From Pseudanabaena biceps PCC 7429 (GTDB taxonomy: Bacteria > Cyanobacteriota > Cyanobacteriia > Pseudanabaenales > Pseudanabaenaceae), in assembly GCF_000332215.1 (NCBI RefSeq), contig NZ_ALWB01000009.1, forward strand, positions 1-49,310: a stretch of 49,310 nucleotides of DNA, in the 5' to 3' direction. A model generated the notes under the pieces. The model saw only the letters and a list, made by a program, of their open reading frames with translations, did not search any database and was not told the DNA's origin. Positions within the stretch are counted from its first letter, which is position 1. Each line of letters opens with the position of its first letter. The position numbers were made by a program, and so were the translations under genes. Shown here piece after piece: positions 36,513-49,310 of the stretch.

Positions 36513-37277
36513 CTATGAGCCTAAATATGCCTCTAAAACTTTAGGATCGGTTTGAATTTCGGCGGGTGAGCCATCAGCAAGGTTGTGACCTTCGGCTAAG
36601 ACCCAGACGCGATCGCACAGAGACATAATCACATCCATATTGTGTTCGATAATCAAAAAGCTCATTCCCTCTTGATTCCATGTTTGGATATAGCTGCAAA
36701 TCTCTTCGATTAAGGCAGGATTTACTCCCGCCGCAGGCTCATCCAACAGGATTAATTTGGGATCGGTCATCAAGGCGCGGGCAATCTCCAATAATTTACG
36801 CTGACCACCTGACAAGCAACCTGCATAGTCATCCGCCATCCTAATTAAGCCTACAGATTCCAGAATATGTCTTGCCTTCTCGCGATTTTCCCGTTCCTGA
36901 ATCGCGATTTTTTGTCCTTGGAACCAAGTATTCCAAAACTTTTCCCCCACTTGATCCTGTGCGGCTAGCAACATATTTTCTAGCACTGATAATCGCGACA
37001 GGACTCGCGGCACTTGAAAGGTACGAATCATACCGAGTTTGGCGATCGCATGGGGAGGCTTGCCTTGAATTGGCATTCCGTTAAATTGGACTGTGCCGCG
37101 ATCGGGCTTGAGGAAGTTCGACAGCAATCCAAAAAATGTGGTTTTTCCTGCCCCATTGGGACCAATCAGTCCTGTGATGCTTCCCGCAGGGACTTCAATC
37201 TGGGCATTACTTACGGCATGAATACCGCCAAAGGATTTCGAGATATTTTCAGCTTTTAGAATTGGGGCGATCGCCAT
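36513..37277 (-). CDS. livG: branched-chain/neutral amino acid ABC transporter ATPase (LivG type)
   Basis: A 254-residue LivG-type ATPase. Walker A GPNGAGKTT (~37-45), the LivG-specific MIRTFQVPRVLSRLSVLENML, signature LSGGQRKLLEIARAL (~158), Walker B KLILLDEPAAGVNP and the C-terminal AEGHNLADGSPAEIQTDPKV. In cyanobacteria such ATPases serve the Nat/Liv transporters for neutral amino acids, with LivF, LivH, LivM and a binding protein encoded elsewhere; none is next to it here. It is flanked by two toxin-antitoxin modules, which may have inserted around it. Confidence 0.92.
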   Translation of the reverse strand: MAIAPILKAENISKSFGGIHAVSNAQIEVPAGSITGLIGPNGAGKTTFFGLLSNFLKPDRGTVQFNGMPIQGKPPHAIAKLGMIRTFQVPRVLSRLSVLENMLLAAQDQVGEKFWNTWFQGQKIAIQERENREKARHILESVGLIRMADDYAGCLSGGQRKLLEIARALMTDPKLILLDEPAAGVNPALIEEICSYIQTWNQEGMSFLIIEHNMDVIMSLCDRVWVLAEGHNLADGSPAEIQTDPKVLEAYLGS

Positions 37278-37299
37278 AGATTTTGGAGAGTTGCAAGAT

Positions 37300-37889
<590 letters not shown>

Positions 37890-37940
37890 TCAAACTTCTA
37901 CCTTGAAAGTGGTGGATCAAAAAGATCCGAGTCAAATTTT

Positions 37941-39359
37941 TTACAATCTACATATTTCAGCCCGTTTCAAGACTTGCATCCTAGTTTTAGCGCCTTTCCC
38001 CGCAGCACGTATGGCTGCTGAGGGAAGATGTCCCTTAGGGGCATTCAAGTCATAGATGCGGTCATTCTTAGATTGCCAAACTTGATTGACTCGCCAACCA
38101 ACGCGATCTCCAAAACTGTCCCAAATTTCTTCTACCTCTTTCAAAATCTTGACTTGAATACTGAAACCAAACCTTCCCTCTGAATAATGTGTCCATAGTT
38201 GATCGATTATTTCTAAATCATCACAGGGAAAAGTATCAATTAATTCGCTCGGCAAATAATTGACTTCACCGACTACACGCAACATCAATTCCTTTGTTTC
38301 TAGATCGGCATCTTGCCATTGTCCCTTGCTCAATAAATCATTAAGTTTGCTATAGCTTATGTCTATTGATGAAATTAAAGAATCTGTACTGAAAATATTT
38401 GCAGGTAAAAACTGCGACATAGATTCATCTTGGCAAAACTGATTTTCTATCTGAGTAATGATTTCTTTTGGGATCTGCCTAAAGAGCCAATCTCTTGAAA
38501 CATTCAGTCCCCCATCAAGATATATTGCCCCTAATATAGCTTCTAACCCATCCGTCAAATTTTTAGTCCCCAACATTCCATCGTGGCGAATAAAGCGTGC
38601 TAAGCCCAATCTGTTAGCAATAAATTCTAGTGTGTTATCCTTCACCAACTTGTCTCGATTACTCGACAACTTACCTTTCCCATATTTACCTTTGAGGTTG
38701 TAGAGGTATTCGAGAACAATGAAATCTAACAAAGAATCTCCTAAAAGTGCCAAACCTTCATTATGGTCACCAGCATTTTTCCAGCGCACGGCATAAGAAC
38801 GCTCTGTAATTGCTGTTTGAAGGAATGCTTCATTGCAAAATTCATGCGAGATTGCCTTTTCAATAACTGCTATATCAACTATTGATAGTTTATTCTCTAT
38901 AGTCTTACTTCTATCTGAGTCTAGATGCGAGAGAAATTGATTTATAAACCAATTTTGGGCTATACCTAATCCTTGATCCAAATAGATTGCAGCTAACAAT
39001 GCTTTAAAAGAGCGGATAATATCTTCTGAGCTAATTAGATCATTGGTCTTTTTAGCCCTGACAAGTTTATTGAGACAAATCTTTTCTGAAAATAAGTTTA
39101 GATTTTCATCCTTATTTACCAATTTATCCCGTTCATCAGAAATAAATTGCTTGCCATGCTGGTTGCCATAAATTTTATAGAGATGCTCAACCACAATTAA
39201 GTCAAGCAAAGTATCTCCCAAAATCGCTAAACATCCGTTATGAGCTTCAGGAGTACCAATAAATCGTGCATAAGTTGTATGAGTTAGTGATTGCCAAAGT
39301 AAATTTTTATCGAGAAATGTTAATCCGATTGCAGATTCAATAGCTTTTATATCGTTCAT
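37941..39359 (-). CDS. tandem RNase III - GUN4 fusion protein
   Basis: A 472-residue protein with three parts. Residues ~6-145 are an RNase III domain in which HNGCLAILGD (41-49) has Gly in place of the first catalytic Glu, and IIRSFKALLAAIYLD has Arg116 and Lys119 where Asp and Glu are expected: it keeps the fold but probably not the chemistry. Residues ~163-297 are a second RNase III domain with the metal ligands kept (HNEGLALLGDSLLD: Glu201, Asp208; TDGLEAILGAIYLD: Asp270, Glu273). Residues ~332-446 match GUN4, the tetrapyrrole-binding regulator of Mg-chelatase (FPCDDLEIIDQLW, SEGRFGFSIQ, VGWRVNQVW, DLNAPKGHLP). No dsRNA-binding domain is present. Confidence 0.9.
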   Translation of the reverse strand: MNDIKAIESAIGLTFLDKNLLWQSLTHTTYARFIGTPEAHNGCLAILGDTLLDLIVVEHLYKIYGNQHGKQFISDERDKLVNKDENLNLFSEKICLNKLVRAKKTNDLISSEDIIRSFKALLAAIYLDQGLGIAQNWFINQFLSHLDSDRSKTIENKLSIVDIAVIEKAISHEFCNEAFLQTAITERSYAVRWKNAGDHNEGLALLGDSLLDFIVLEYLYNLKGKYGKGKLSSNRDKLVKDNTLEFIANRLGLARFIRHDGMLGTKNLTDGLEAILGAIYLDGGLNVSRDWLFRQIPKEIITQIENQFCQDESMSQFLPANIFSTDSLISSIDISYSKLNDLLSKGQWQDADLETKELMLRVVGEVNYLPSELIDTFPCDDLEIIDQLWTHYSEGRFGFSIQVKILKEVEEIWDSFGDRVGWRVNQVWQSKNDRIYDLNAPKGHLPSAAIRAAGKGAKTRMQVLKRAEICRL

Positions 39360-39404
39360 GATTTTACTAAGTGTTTATATAGTGGCGTGAGTTAATTATC
39401 TTAA

Positions 39405-39749
39405 TTAAGGTGATTTTTTTGTCCGAGACTGCTTTGTAGAGATTTTTTGGAGTTTTTGGATTTGTTTTAGGGTTAGCCCAGTTACCTGAGCTACTAAATC
39501 TGGAGACATATTGGAACGCAACATATTTAGCGCAATTTGGTTAGTTGCTTCAACCTTGCCCTTAGCTTCTCCTTTCGCCAAACCTTCGCGCAAAATTTCT
39601 TGATAGACAACTGATTCTTCCATGATCTCACTCCTGAGTAACCTTTGAATTACTTCATGATCTAATGCTAACCCAGAGATAATTGCTGTGGCAGCAGCGA
39701 CACCACTAAACAGACATCGCCTGAACTGGAGCAGCGCAATTTTGATTAA
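39405..39749 (-). pseudogene. C-terminal remnant of an Rpn family nuclease/transposase
   Basis: The open frame from 39749 encodes 114 residues with no start codon before ATG 39623. It reads ..VAAATAIISGLALDHEVIQR, LLRSEIMEESVVYQEILREG, then a KGEAKGKVEA segment and MSPDLVAQVTGLTLKQIQKL. This is the usual tail of Rpn/PD-(D/E)xK 'recombination-promoting' proteins; the N-terminal nuclease domain is absent, replaced by a stop and the downstream end of the Uma2 gene. The 72-residue reading frame from 39623 could still be translated, but a decayed gene is more likely. Confidence 0.75.
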
Positions 39750-39766
39750 CTAACAATATATCTACC

Positions 39767-40399
39767 CTACAGTTGCGAGCTATCAAGAAAATCAACATTT
39801 TCGTAGAGGGCAGATAAAGGGAATTGGAGATCGATGCTAGTTATATGAATAAGAGGATCATCTTGCTCAAAAGTTGTCTGCTCGATCGCTATAGACTGAT
39901 ATTCCCAAGCACGATCGCTATGTCTTTGATAAACTTCGACAATAGGACGCTCTGAGTCGATCAGGATATAGGCTTGCAGCGTATCGATCGCCATATAACT
40001 TTGCTGCTTAATACCGCGATCGCGTGCTTCGGTAGTAGGAGATAAAACTTCCGCAATCAGCACAGGATATTGCAAAAAATCACGGGAGAAGCGATCGCGA
40101 TTGTCACAGGACACGACCACATCAGGATAATAATATTTTCGAGATCTAACAAGAACTTTGGCCTCACTGACCGATACTTTGCATCCTTTTCCTCGCAGAT
40201 GCGGTATGAACAAGGCTGCTAAATTGGCAGGAATTTGGCTGTGAGGGACTGTGCCGCCTGTCATCGCAATGATTTTACCGTTTTCATATTCATATTTTTC
40301 TTCTTGCTGACTTTCCCAAACAAGGTACTCATCAGCAGACATAATGATTTGATGATCTTCTTGGCTTACTTCTGGAATTAGCTTTGCTTGAGCAATCAT
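39767..40399 (-). CDS. Uma2 family (DUF820) putative endonuclease
   Basis: A 210-residue Uma2-family protein. Entry motif MSADEYLVWESQQEEKYEYE, block NGKIIAMTGGTVPHSQIPAN, nuclease-type core YYYPDVVVSCDNR, PVLIAEVLSPTTEARDRGIK and the YILIDSERPIVEVYQ strand. Fourth such gene in the window. It starts about 50 bases downstream of the nblS stop on the same strand, and the Rpn remnant follows. Role unknown. Confidence 0.88.
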   Translation of the reverse strand: MIAQAKLIPEVSQEDHQIIMSADEYLVWESQQEEKYEYENGKIIAMTGGTVPHSQIPANLAALFIPHLRGKGCKVSVSEAKVLVRSRKYYYPDVVVSCDNRDRFSRDFLQYPVLIAEVLSPTTEARDRGIKQQSYMAIDTLQAYILIDSERPIVEVYQRHSDRAWEYQSIAIEQTTFEQDDPLIHITSIDLQFPLSALYENVDFLDSSQL

Positions 40400-40447
40400 C
40401 GACTTAATCTCCTAAAACAACCCTAAAATAACATTTAGTCATAATTC

Positions 40448-42421
40448 CTAAATCGTCATCGCTTGGACGGGAGCCGCGATCGCTGCCGTTACAGGTAACT
40501 CACAGCGATCTTGATAGACACTGAGGTCAAACCAGAAGGTCGTACCAACACCAACTTCGCTCTTGATATTAATTACACTGTGATGCTTTTCGACAATATT
40601 ACGGACGATCGATAGCCCCAAACCAGTGCCTTCAAGGGTATGCACCTTATCCTCAACGCGATAAAAACGATCAAAAATGCGATCGCAGTCCTCCGCAGGG
40701 ATGCCATAGCCTGTATCCTCCACCTCTACCCGCACATAGTTGACCGTACGATGGGGCTGAGTAGTGGTTTGGTCTTGCCAAGGATAGATGCGAATGATCA
40801 CTTTACCGCCCATATCCGTAAATTTCAGGGCATTACCCACCAGATTCGATAAAACCTGCAAAATTAAATCGTAATTGCCCCAGATTCTTTCTAAATTGGG
40901 GGCAATTTCATAGATCAGATCGATTCCCTTAGAGGAAGCATTCAGTTTGTAAGTGCGTACCGTTTGTTCTACGGTTTCCGAGAGGTCTATCGCCGTGAAA
41001 TGGTATTGCCGTCCAGACTCTAAGCGCGATAAATCCAACACATCATTAACAAGGCGAGTAAGGCGATCGGTTTCGCTATTTGCCGTACCGAGAAATTCTT
41101 TTTTCTGATCGTCGCTTAACTCATCGCCATATTCATGCAGAGTTTCGATAAAGGACTTGATGTTAAATAAGGGCGTGCGTAATTCATGGCTGACATTGCT
41201 AATAAAACGGCTCTGAGCTGCATTTAACTCCACTTCGCGGGTGATGTCCTGAATCGTGATCGCGATTCCTTTAATAGCATTGCTGGAACTTAAAACGCTC
41301 GTAATCCAGATTCTAAAGGCATGGGCAAGCACCGAATCTTTTTCCCCAGAAGCCATGATCCGAAATTCACCCCCTTCACGATCACCCGTCGCAATCTGCA
41401 TTAGCGATCTCCCCAGATCGGCACTGAGGCGATCGGGCAAAATATTGAGAATGCTTTTACCTTGCCAATTATTTTTTTCTAAATCCTGTTCCCACCCCAT
41501 GATTTTGATTGCCGCAGGATTAGCAAGGACAATCCGCATATCCGAGTCAAGTAACAATGCGCCATCCGCGATCGTGGAAACTAAGGTTTCGAGCTTTGCT
41601 TTTTCGGCGGTTAACTCCTCAATATTCTGCTCCTCATAGGTTTTGAGGCGCTGAGCCATATCATTAAAACTGCGAATTAATTCCCCCAATTCTCCGCCAA
41701 AAGGCAAATCGATTCTTTGTTTGAAATTCCCCTTAGCAATATTTTGTACCCCCGCGACCAATTCCCGCAGCGGTCGGGTAATGGTTACCGAATTTGAAGC
41801 CGCACCCAAAATTACCATAGCCCAGATCGAGACAAATACTGCCGTGGTCACATCTAGAGTCAGGCTCGATGAGGCAACTGCCGTAGGATTGGGATTAATG
41901 CCGATCGCGATAATGCCTAAAGCCTTGCCGCCATGCTGTAAATTGACGAAAATATCGGTGACTTCACCCTGCGGTGTGATATGTTGTCTCACTAAAGGGC
42001 GATCGGGACGCATCATCGGATCTTCGGGTAACTGAATACGTCTTCTGATGCTTAAAGAATTTTTGACCTCGTTAGAATTAAAGGGAATACCATAAAATAT
42101 TTCTCCATCAGGATCGGCATAGAGAATATAGCGAATGCTGGAGCTACTATCGTAAAATTCTTTAGAAAGACGGGTCACTTCTTCGAGATCGTTTTTGGCA
42201 ACTAAGGGCGCAACATTAGCCGCAAGTAACAACCCTAAATCTTTGCCAAAGCGCGTATCATTAAGTCGCGCATCAGTCTGAATGTCGTTAACTGCCCAAA
42301 AGGTGACAGCACTCATGAGCAAAGAAACTAGTAACGTAATTAGCGCCATTAGTTTTGTTTGCAATGAAAACTCTGTCCACCAGCGTCGAGATATATTATA
42401 AATTTGAAGCAAAAAGTTCAT
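40448..42421 (-). CDS. nblS: sensor histidine kinase NblS (Hik33/DspA)
   Basis: A 657-residue membrane kinase. Helix 1 at ~24-43, a periplasmic sensor region ~44-188 (RFGKDLGLLLAANVAPLVAK, SSSIRYILYADPDGEIFYGI), helix 2 at ~189-208, HAMP ~209-262, PAS ~272-395 (DGALLLDSDMRIVLANPAAI), HisKA with phosphoacceptor His412 (SRFISNVSHELRTPLFNIK), then HATPase with LVGNALKFTDMGG, DTGYGIPAED and GTGLGLSIVRNIV. This layout is the well-conserved cyanobacterial NblS/Hik33, which works with RpaB in responses to high light, cold and nutrient stress. It is divergent from the 555-residue protein gene. Confidence 0.95.
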   Translation of the reverse strand: MNFLLQIYNISRRWWTEFSLQTKLMALITLLVSLLMSAVTFWAVNDIQTDARLNDTRFGKDLGLLLAANVAPLVAKNDLEEVTRLSKEFYDSSSSIRYILYADPDGEIFYGIPFNSNEVKNSLSIRRRIQLPEDPMMRPDRPLVRQHITPQGEVTDIFVNLQHGGKALGIIAIGINPNPTAVASSSLTLDVTTAVFVSIWAMVILGAASNSVTITRPLRELVAGVQNIAKGNFKQRIDLPFGGELGELIRSFNDMAQRLKTYEEQNIEELTAEKAKLETLVSTIADGALLLDSDMRIVLANPAAIKIMGWEQDLEKNNWQGKSILNILPDRLSADLGRSLMQIATGDREGGEFRIMASGEKDSVLAHAFRIWITSVLSSSNAIKGIAITIQDITREVELNAAQSRFISNVSHELRTPLFNIKSFIETLHEYGDELSDDQKKEFLGTANSETDRLTRLVNDVLDLSRLESGRQYHFTAIDLSETVEQTVRTYKLNASSKGIDLIYEIAPNLERIWGNYDLILQVLSNLVGNALKFTDMGGKVIIRIYPWQDQTTTQPHRTVNYVRVEVEDTGYGIPAEDCDRIFDRFYRVEDKVHTLEGTGLGLSIVRNIVEKHHSVINIKSEVGVGTTFWFDLSVYQDRCELPVTAAIAAPVQAMTI

Positions 42422-48291: not shown

Positions 48292-48295
48292 TCAC
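48252..48295 (-). ncRNA. probable TnpB guide-RNA (omega RNA) 3' region and element right end
   Basis: Directly after the TnpB stop, the minus strand reads TCACTTCAGTGCGGGGTGGA then TGTCAA, like the right ends of IS605/IS1341-type elements in cyanobacteria, where the RNA scaffold overlaps the tnpB 3' end and the guide begins just past the element. A small CACTTCAGTG palindrome is visible. The exact end (near 48252-48258) is a guess. Confidence 0.5.
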
Positions 48296-49310
48296 GACTT
48301 AGGTTTCTGCTTCATAGCACCAGCCTTCCGAGATTTGCTCTCTTCAGGTCTTACAGTCGCTCCACAGACATTAACCGCAAGCCCTGCGGCAAGAATATTT
48401 TTTGCAGCATTTACATCTCTATCGTGATGCGTACTGCACTTAGGACAATCCCACTCTCTGACATTTAAAGGCAACTTATCCACAACATAACCGCAATCTC
48501 CACACCTTTTAGAGCTAGGAAACCAACGATCAATTTTGACAAAAGTACGACCATACCAGTTGCACTTATATTCCAGTTGCCTGACTGTTTCACCCCAACT
48601 AGCATCACTAATCGAGAGAGCGAGTTTTCTATTTTTGACCATATTCTTCACAGACAAATCTTCGACTGCAATCACTTGGTTTTCACGAACCAGTCGAGTT
48701 GTCAACTTGTGAAGGAAATCAAGCCGAGCATCGCTAATTGCTGCATGAACTTTAGCGACCTTCAATCTAGCTTTGTGGCGATTATTAGATCCTTTCTTTT
48801 TCCTGCTAAGCGCTTTCTGTACTTTACGCAATTTACGGCGCTTAGCTTTGAATGTTTTAGGATTGGCAATCTTTTCGCCATTACTTAAAGCCATCAGGCT
48901 AGTAATGCCCAAATCCAAGCCAATTTGATTAGGAGATTCAGGTAATGTTTCGATTACGACATCAACTAGCAAAGATACAGTCCACCGTCCAGAGGGCGAG
49001 AGTTTCACCGTAATTGTTGATGGCTCTGCACTTTCAGGAAGTTCACGACTCCAACGGATATCCAAAGGTTGAGAACATTTAGCCAAAAATACTTTGCCAT
49101 CTTTCCACTTGAAAGCAGCCTTGGTAAACTCAGCACTCCCACCGTGATGTTTTTTCTTGAAGTTGGGATATTTTGCCCGTCCTGCGAAGAAATTAGTAAA
49201 CGTGGATTGTAAATGTCTTAGCCCTTGCTGTAACGGCACACTGCTAACTTCATTAAGAAATTGCAAGTCCTCTTGCTTCTTCCAACTGGTTAGCATTGTT
49301 GAGGTTTCAG
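48292..49310 (-). CDS. tnpB: TnpB RNA-guided nuclease of IS605/IS1341 family (5' end beyond window)
   Basis: At least 339 codons of an intact TnpB; the frame is open to the window edge, so the true start lies outside. Numbering from the Met at 49296: RuvC Asp128 (IGLDLGITSLMALSNGEK), RuvC Glu212 (IAVEDLSVKNMVKN), a zinc ribbon with Cys265, Cys268, Cys284 and Cys287, and RuvC-III Asp294 (HDRDVNAAKNILAAG). All catalytic residues are present, so the nuclease is probably active. The C-terminal tail is basic (SRKAGAMKQKPKS). No tnpA is in the visible part. Confidence 0.93.
   Translation of the reverse strand, partial: ETSTMLTSWKKQEDLQFLNEVSSVPLQQGLRHLQSTFTNFFAGRAKYPNFKKKHHGGSAEFTKAAFKWKDGKVFLAKCSQPLDIRWSRELPESAEPSTITVKLSPSGRWTVSLLVDVVIETLPESPNQIGLDLGITSLMALSNGEKIANPKTFKAKRRKLRKVQKALSRKKKGSNNRHKARLKVAKVHAAISDARLDFLHKLTTRLVRENQVIAVEDLSVKNMVKNRKLALSISDASWGETVRQLEYKCNWYGRTFVKIDRWFPSSKRCGDCGYVVDKLPLNVREWDCPKCSTHHDRDVNAAKNILAAGLAVNVCGATVRPEESKSRKAGAMKQKPKS

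Follow-up and report, generated by a model that had tools for sequence, protein, structure and literature searches.

Carried on the minus strand of the window analyzed here, a 49,310-nucleotide stretch of the ~5.5 Mb Pseudanabaena biceps PCC 7429 genome, a single gene (37941..39359) appears to join two ribonuclease III cores to a GUN4 domain, raising the question of whether such a protein is genuine, whether it can cut RNA, and whether its C-terminal domain ties it to pigment status. The original prediction of one uninterrupted 472-codon frame holds in coordinates, strand and Pfam assignments: the complete gene runs from an ATG start to a stop codon at 37941-37943, with 0 internal stops, and encodes a 472 aa product. 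RNase III core 1 (residues 1-150; 38910..39359) and core 2 (residues 159-305; 38445..38885) lie in tandem, each covered by a Ribonucleas_3_3 match above the Pfam cut-off (residues 1-160, E 1.6e-16; residues 160-317, E 3.7e-20). A linker (residues 306-325; 38385..38444) devoid of any Pfam match or dsRNA-binding domain leads into the GUN4 domain (residues 331-451; 38007..38369), detected at E 8.8e-38 (130.1 bits against a cut-off of 29.2), and the protein ends in a short tail (residues 452-472; 37944..38006) with conserved Gly, Lys and Arg residues and Cys470; all these features lie on the minus strand. Pfam searches detected no dsrm or other dsRNA-binding domain anywhere in the 472 aa protein, and the canonical bacterial RNase III equivalog TIGR02191 scored 157.1 bits over two stretches, below its cut-off of 166.25. 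The closest solved structures in the PDB were human Drosha for core 2, Aquifex RNase III for core 1 and cyanobacterial GUN4 for the C-terminus. An AlphaFold model of the full protein, generated from an alignment of few relatives, was of low confidence, with a mean pLDDT of 44 and a pTM of 0.33. As anticipated by the original prediction, no description of an RNase III-GUN4 fusion was found in the literature searched.

A survey across cyanobacteria turned up further copies of this three-part architecture in other Pseudanabaena genomes, in a second family of cyanobacteria and on a Chroococcidiopsis thermalis plasmid. Searches recovered the gene from 3 of 26 genomes in the genus, from 4 of 390 in a draw across the class, from 1 of 42 belonging to the second family (that of genome G235) and from 1 of 293 in another order-level draw, the last match (G725) being the C. 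thermalis gene itself, with equal coordinates. Within Pseudanabaena, the G002 copy is complete and 86% identical to the window protein, the copy in Pseudanabaena sp. UWO311 (G008) carries a one-base frameshift just past the core 2 Glu, and the gene is absent from the close relative G004. The G235 copy is complete, with 57% identity across its RNase III portion, and the Chroococcidiopsis thermalis PCC 7203 copy, located on the conjugative plasmid pCHRO.01 (WP_015163161.1) and annotated as a GUN4 domain-containing protein and nothing more, shows 45% identity over its full length. Among phage and viral contigs, no relative with the RNase III-RNase III-GUN4 architecture was found. The dN/dS ratio between the window gene and its 86%-identical orthologue in G002 is 0.24, indicating that the gene is under purifying selection. 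Given this selection, and given that the three parts stay together in copies of 57% and 45% identity, the fusion is the product of neither chance nor an assembly join; it is a genuine and mobile architecture, ancient enough to be shared between families.

In maximum-likelihood trees, all the core 1 copies form a single clade whose sister is the clade of all the core 2 copies (support for the pair, 98/96); within each, C. thermalis branches first, followed by G235 and finally Pseudanabaena. The tandem family's GUN4 domains are likewise monophyletic (100/95) and branch in the same order as the cores, revealing that a single core duplication gave rise to the family and that the three-part protein has travelled as a unit.

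To establish which cores could cut RNA, residues were read against E. coli-type RNase III at positions 38, 41, 45, 114 and 117, of which Glu41, Asp45, Asp114 and Glu117 form the cleavage site and Glu38 contacts RNA (PMC9291653). The window protein reads G/A/D/R/K at these positions in core 1 (Gly42, Ala45, Asp49, Arg116 and Lys119) and E/A/D/D/E in core 2 (Glu201, Ala204, Asp208, Asp270 and Glu273). The acidic ligands ascribed to core 2 therefore hold good for Asp208, Asp270 and Glu273, the only three of the canonical four that it has, since Ala204 occupies the Glu41 position, and not for Glu201, which aligns with the RNA-contacting Glu38. For core 1, the proposed loss of ligands stands at Arg116 and Lys119, whereas the Gly noted there (Gly42) aligns with Glu38, and Asp49 is kept; the alignment, also checked for a shifted register, did not rescue this core, which is predicted to be catalytically dead. 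With two cores in one chain and the Asp45 and Glu117 equivalents (Asp208 and Glu273) in one of them, the window protein is consistent with the proposed single-chain pseudo-dimer with one plausible active site.

The same positions read E/A/D/N/E (core 1) and E/A/D/D/E (core 2) in G235, and E/A/D/E/E (core 1) and Q/A/N/D/K (core 2) in C. thermalis. The Asp45/Glu117 pair is thus kept in core 2 of Pseudanabaena, in core 1 of C. thermalis and in both cores of G235, so that each intact family member has it at least once, while the other core has Glu117 replaced by Lys in Pseudanabaena (core 1) and in C. thermalis (core 2, where Asp45 is also replaced by Asn). In E. coli RNase III, the E117K substitution (rnc70) abolishes cleavage and leaves dsRNA binding intact (PMC8708148). 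Which site is lost varies with the lineage, an alternation that would be expected if one cutting site were needed and the other core were needed only as a partner; with two loss events, this reciprocal loss is suggestive rather than conclusive. Loss of Asp114 was considered as a sign of damage and discounted, because Cys, Ser or Asn takes its place in other cyanobacterial RNase III proteins; nor do canonical cyanobacterial RNase III proteins conserve it. Throughout the tandem family, every core has Ala at the Glu41 position and Lys or Arg at the Glu65 position. Since no core has Glu41, and since the E. coli E41A enzyme shows only weak activity when Mg2+ is in excess (PMC8708148), all copies of the family may be poor enzymes. 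Between the window and UWO311, amino-acid changes affect 2 of 267 sites in core 2 and 20 of 354 in core 1; a suspected higher dN/dS of the dead core was abandoned, since no significant difference separates the ratios (Fisher p 0.26 and 0.61).

The GUN4 portion was compared with stand-alone GUN4 proteins. The stand-alone GUN4 encoded in the same genome clusters with its stand-alone counterparts (100/99), and the fused domain falls outside that group; by its sequence, it is a divergent, paralogue-type GUN4. The bilin motif LxNxLR, present as LSNQLR in the own-genome GUN4, reads PSAAIR in the fused domain; the Asn of this motif is needed for bilin binding, and its loss in Chlamydomonas GUN4 leaves porphyrin binding in place (PMC10156173). 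Phe196, which is important for porphyrin binding by GUN4 (PMC8967248), is replaced by an invariant Arg (Arg434), the Trp192 equivalent falls in a gap, and G002 and UWO311 have a shortened alpha6/alpha7 binding loop. Arg451, which lies near Arg214, and Lys/Arg356 may serve as stand-ins for Arg214 and Arg113, respectively. Any porphyrin binding by the fused domain would find no support in the Phe196, Trp192 or bilin-motif positions, and the original prediction that RNA cutting is gated by a chlorophyll intermediate is left unsupported by these substitutions and by the loop shortened in two orthologues. We infer that the ligand of the domain is not a classic bilin. Fusion of GUN4 to effector domains is widespread in cyanobacteria; the partners found comprise a kinase, a caspase, TPR combined with a macro domain, and a phosphorylase of the PNP type. 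A Pseudanabaena TPR-GUN4-macro-domain protein (L009:1-2574) constitutes another unusual GUN4 fusion. GUN4 has been placed in conflict systems (PMC7159879, PMC8195603), and its fusions have been proposed to act as tetrapyrrole sensors (PMC7159879, eLife 2020).

In the window, the gene resides in a variable cargo interval (37278..40447) bounded by a livG-type ABC ATPase gene (36513-37277) and a sensor kinase gene (40448-42421), together with a VapC-like PIN gene (37300-37695), an Rpn-type remnant and a Uma2 gene (39767-40399). All three Pseudanabaena copies occupy this common chromosomal interval, the content of which varies widely across the genus. It is nearly empty (about 130 bases) in G014; in G004, where the flanking LivG is 99% identical, it contains VapBC plus two unknown genes. 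Among the versions of the interval compared (window 37278-40447; L133-L144), L138 has an almost empty one. Elsewhere, the cargo includes AbiTii in G018, with a near-identical gene in G010, an HsdR_N protein in G005, a PDC-M15A-like protein in G012 and G021, a 486 aa protein with an RNELLH motif in G019, and various toxin-antitoxin (VapBC, YefM/YoeB) and Rpn genes. Toxin-antitoxin and Rpn genes occupy many cyanobacterial intervals. The 486 aa interval protein (L136:8141-9598, L143:7953-9419) has no Pfam or PADLOC match, and its RNELLH motif recalls HEPN nucleases. A homologue of the PDC-M15A-like protein is encoded immediately upstream of the G235 copy, and the C. thermalis copy neighbors a helicase gene, an N6-methylase gene, an Rpn-family gene and an AbrB/PIN pair. 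Comparison of the RNase III-GUN4 copies revealed no partner gene conserved beside them. A PADLOC match to PD-T4-6 was rejected as evidence of defense because it covers only the GUN4 part of this kinase-GUN4 profile (profile positions 300-447), the protein kinase domain being absent from the RNase III-GUN4 protein. At the edge of the window, 48292-49296 encodes a TnpB-like RNA-guided nuclease.

Outside the tandem family, a second fusion was identified in G633, where a single RNase III core retaining the Asp45 and Glu117 equivalents is joined to GUN4 (L114:8739-9839) in a gene divergent from an HTH-NACHT gene. Its core falls in a group with those of L159 and L160 (100/99), and a placement with the tandem family is rejected (p 0.0037), which means that fusion of RNase III to GUN4 has happened at least twice. 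A reading of the L114 protein as the pre-duplication ancestor, undecided by an earlier form of this test, was dropped once L159 and L160 had been added. The L159 gene (L159:1655-2887) encodes an RNase III core fused to NCH2, the NACHT C-terminal helical domain 2 (E 1.6e-26), and is a possible immune effector; the NACHT and NCH2 setting of the second fusion points to immune-type systems. The short RNase III gene of L160 (2202-2831) overlaps a ResIII-type DEAD helicase gene (L160:1-2208, minus strand), a pair that adjoins an AAA-ATPase and a subtilisin-like protease and recalls split Dicer parts. A separate cyanobacterial family of tandem RNase III proteins of ~330 aa (L072:1146-2141, L073:1280-2263, L074:1619-2626, L081:1315-2397) lacks the Asp45/Glu117 pair in both cores, has a conserved C-terminal helix motif and looks like a non-catalytic tandem RNase III.

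The reading that best explains these observations, to which we assign a probability of about 45%, is that of a mobile, accessory, conflict-type dsRNA nickase controlled through its GUN4-like domain. We propose that the two cores pair within one chain, as in Drosha or Dicer, and would so create an RNA-binding valley in which the dead core holds the RNA and one of the two sites cuts; with a single cutting site, one strand of the duplex would be nicked. The C-terminal GUN4-like domain would replace the dsRNA-binding domain as a regulatory or adaptor module, a role modelled on the kinase, caspase and TIR fusions of cyanobacteria. A role against invaders is suggested, indirectly, by the AbiTii, HsdR_N and PDC-M15A-like cargo of the interval, by the plasmid location of the C. 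thermalis copy and by the NACHT and NCH2 links. A bolder version, rather unlikely in our estimate, is a Dicer-like single-chain immune nickase that a GUN4-type sensor holds off and releases upon a change in tetrapyrrole state or a cue made by the invader, a design that would have been reached twice independently, once with tandem and once with single RNase III cores.

Among the alternatives, it is possible, if doubtful, that both sites are too weak to cut and that the protein is a regulator that binds or masks dsRNA. The substitution of Glu41 by Ala and of Glu65 by Lys or Arg in every core would fit such a protein, as would the existence of a second cyanobacterial tandem family without either site, but each intact RNase III-GUN4 protein retains Asp45 with Glu117 in one core or both, which sets it apart from that dead family. 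Ala at 41, together with Thr at 114, is likewise found in the genome's own Mini-III, and a Mini-III enzyme is able to cleave dsRNA (PMC4357697); core 2 has moreover changed at fewer amino-acid sites than core 1, at dN/dS ratios that do not differ significantly. Gating of an RNA-processing enzyme by pigment or light status, with GUN4 binding an Mg-porphyrin or bilin and switching the nuclease, we deem unlikely. The strong GUN4 match, the retained Arg451 and Lys/Arg356, the tetrapyrrole sensing proposed for GUN4 fusions (PMC7159879) and the porphyrin binding that survives loss of the motif Asn (PMC10156173) speak for it; against them stand the altered bilin motif, the invariant Arg434, the missing Trp192 and the shortened loop, and a patchy, partly plasmid-borne distribution that misfits a housekeeping role in pigment metabolism.

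Two further explanations do without defense. A regulator of plasmids or RNA metabolism, acting in antisense-RNA or copy-number control, would suit the copy on a conjugative plasmid and recalls A2542, a Synechococcus RNase III homologue with an effect on plasmid copy number (reviewed in PMC10989914), yet the three Pseudanabaena copies sit in a chromosomal interval and the copies have no conserved partner gene beside them, making this account quite improbable. That the gene is decaying and has no current function, as the frameshift in core 2 of the UWO311 copy and the absence of the gene from G004 might suggest, is very improbable given the intact copies in the window, G002, G235 and C. thermalis and a dN/dS of about 0.24.

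Under the preferred reading of a GUN4-controlled nickase, a bacterial lineage would have built its own single-chain pseudo-dimer by core duplication, after which one or the other site died depending on the lineage, providing a natural test of a half-active dimer. The independent joining of GUN4 to RNase III on two occasions suggests that GUN4-like control modules serve RNA cutting too, adding to kinases and caspases in an apparent defense gene pool, and the small, probably soluble protein makes the ligand of paralogue-type GUN4 domains testable.

Single-chain RNase III pseudo-dimers are a hallmark of Dicer and Drosha. The window protein resembles these class 2/3 enzymes in having two RNase III domains in one chain, for one putative processing center, and among solved structures Drosha scores best against core 2; the window protein differs in lacking a dsRNA-binding domain, a helicase and a PAZ domain and in having GUN4, and the two working sites of Dicer and Drosha have no counterpart in a protein whose core 1 carries Arg116 and Lys119. 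It shares with Mini-III the absence of a dsRNA-binding domain, Ala at the Glu41 position and, in core 1, the lack of Asp at 114, but Mini-III assembles from two identical one-core chains, and the own-genome Mini-III lies on a very long, separate branch of the tree. The dead core bears exactly the substitution of E. coli rnc70 (E117K), here natural and limited to one half of a fused dimer. Cyanobacterial HEPN-RNase III-dsRBD proteins (PMC3710099) similarly recruit RNase III into a conflict-type fusion, though with a single core, an intact NER/Q-LEFLGD motif, a dsRBD and no GUN4. Finally, the kinase-GUN4, caspase-GUN4 and TIR-GUN4 proteins place a paralogue-type GUN4 C-terminally behind an enzymatic domain (PMC7159879), as does the window protein, in which that enzyme is an RNase III.
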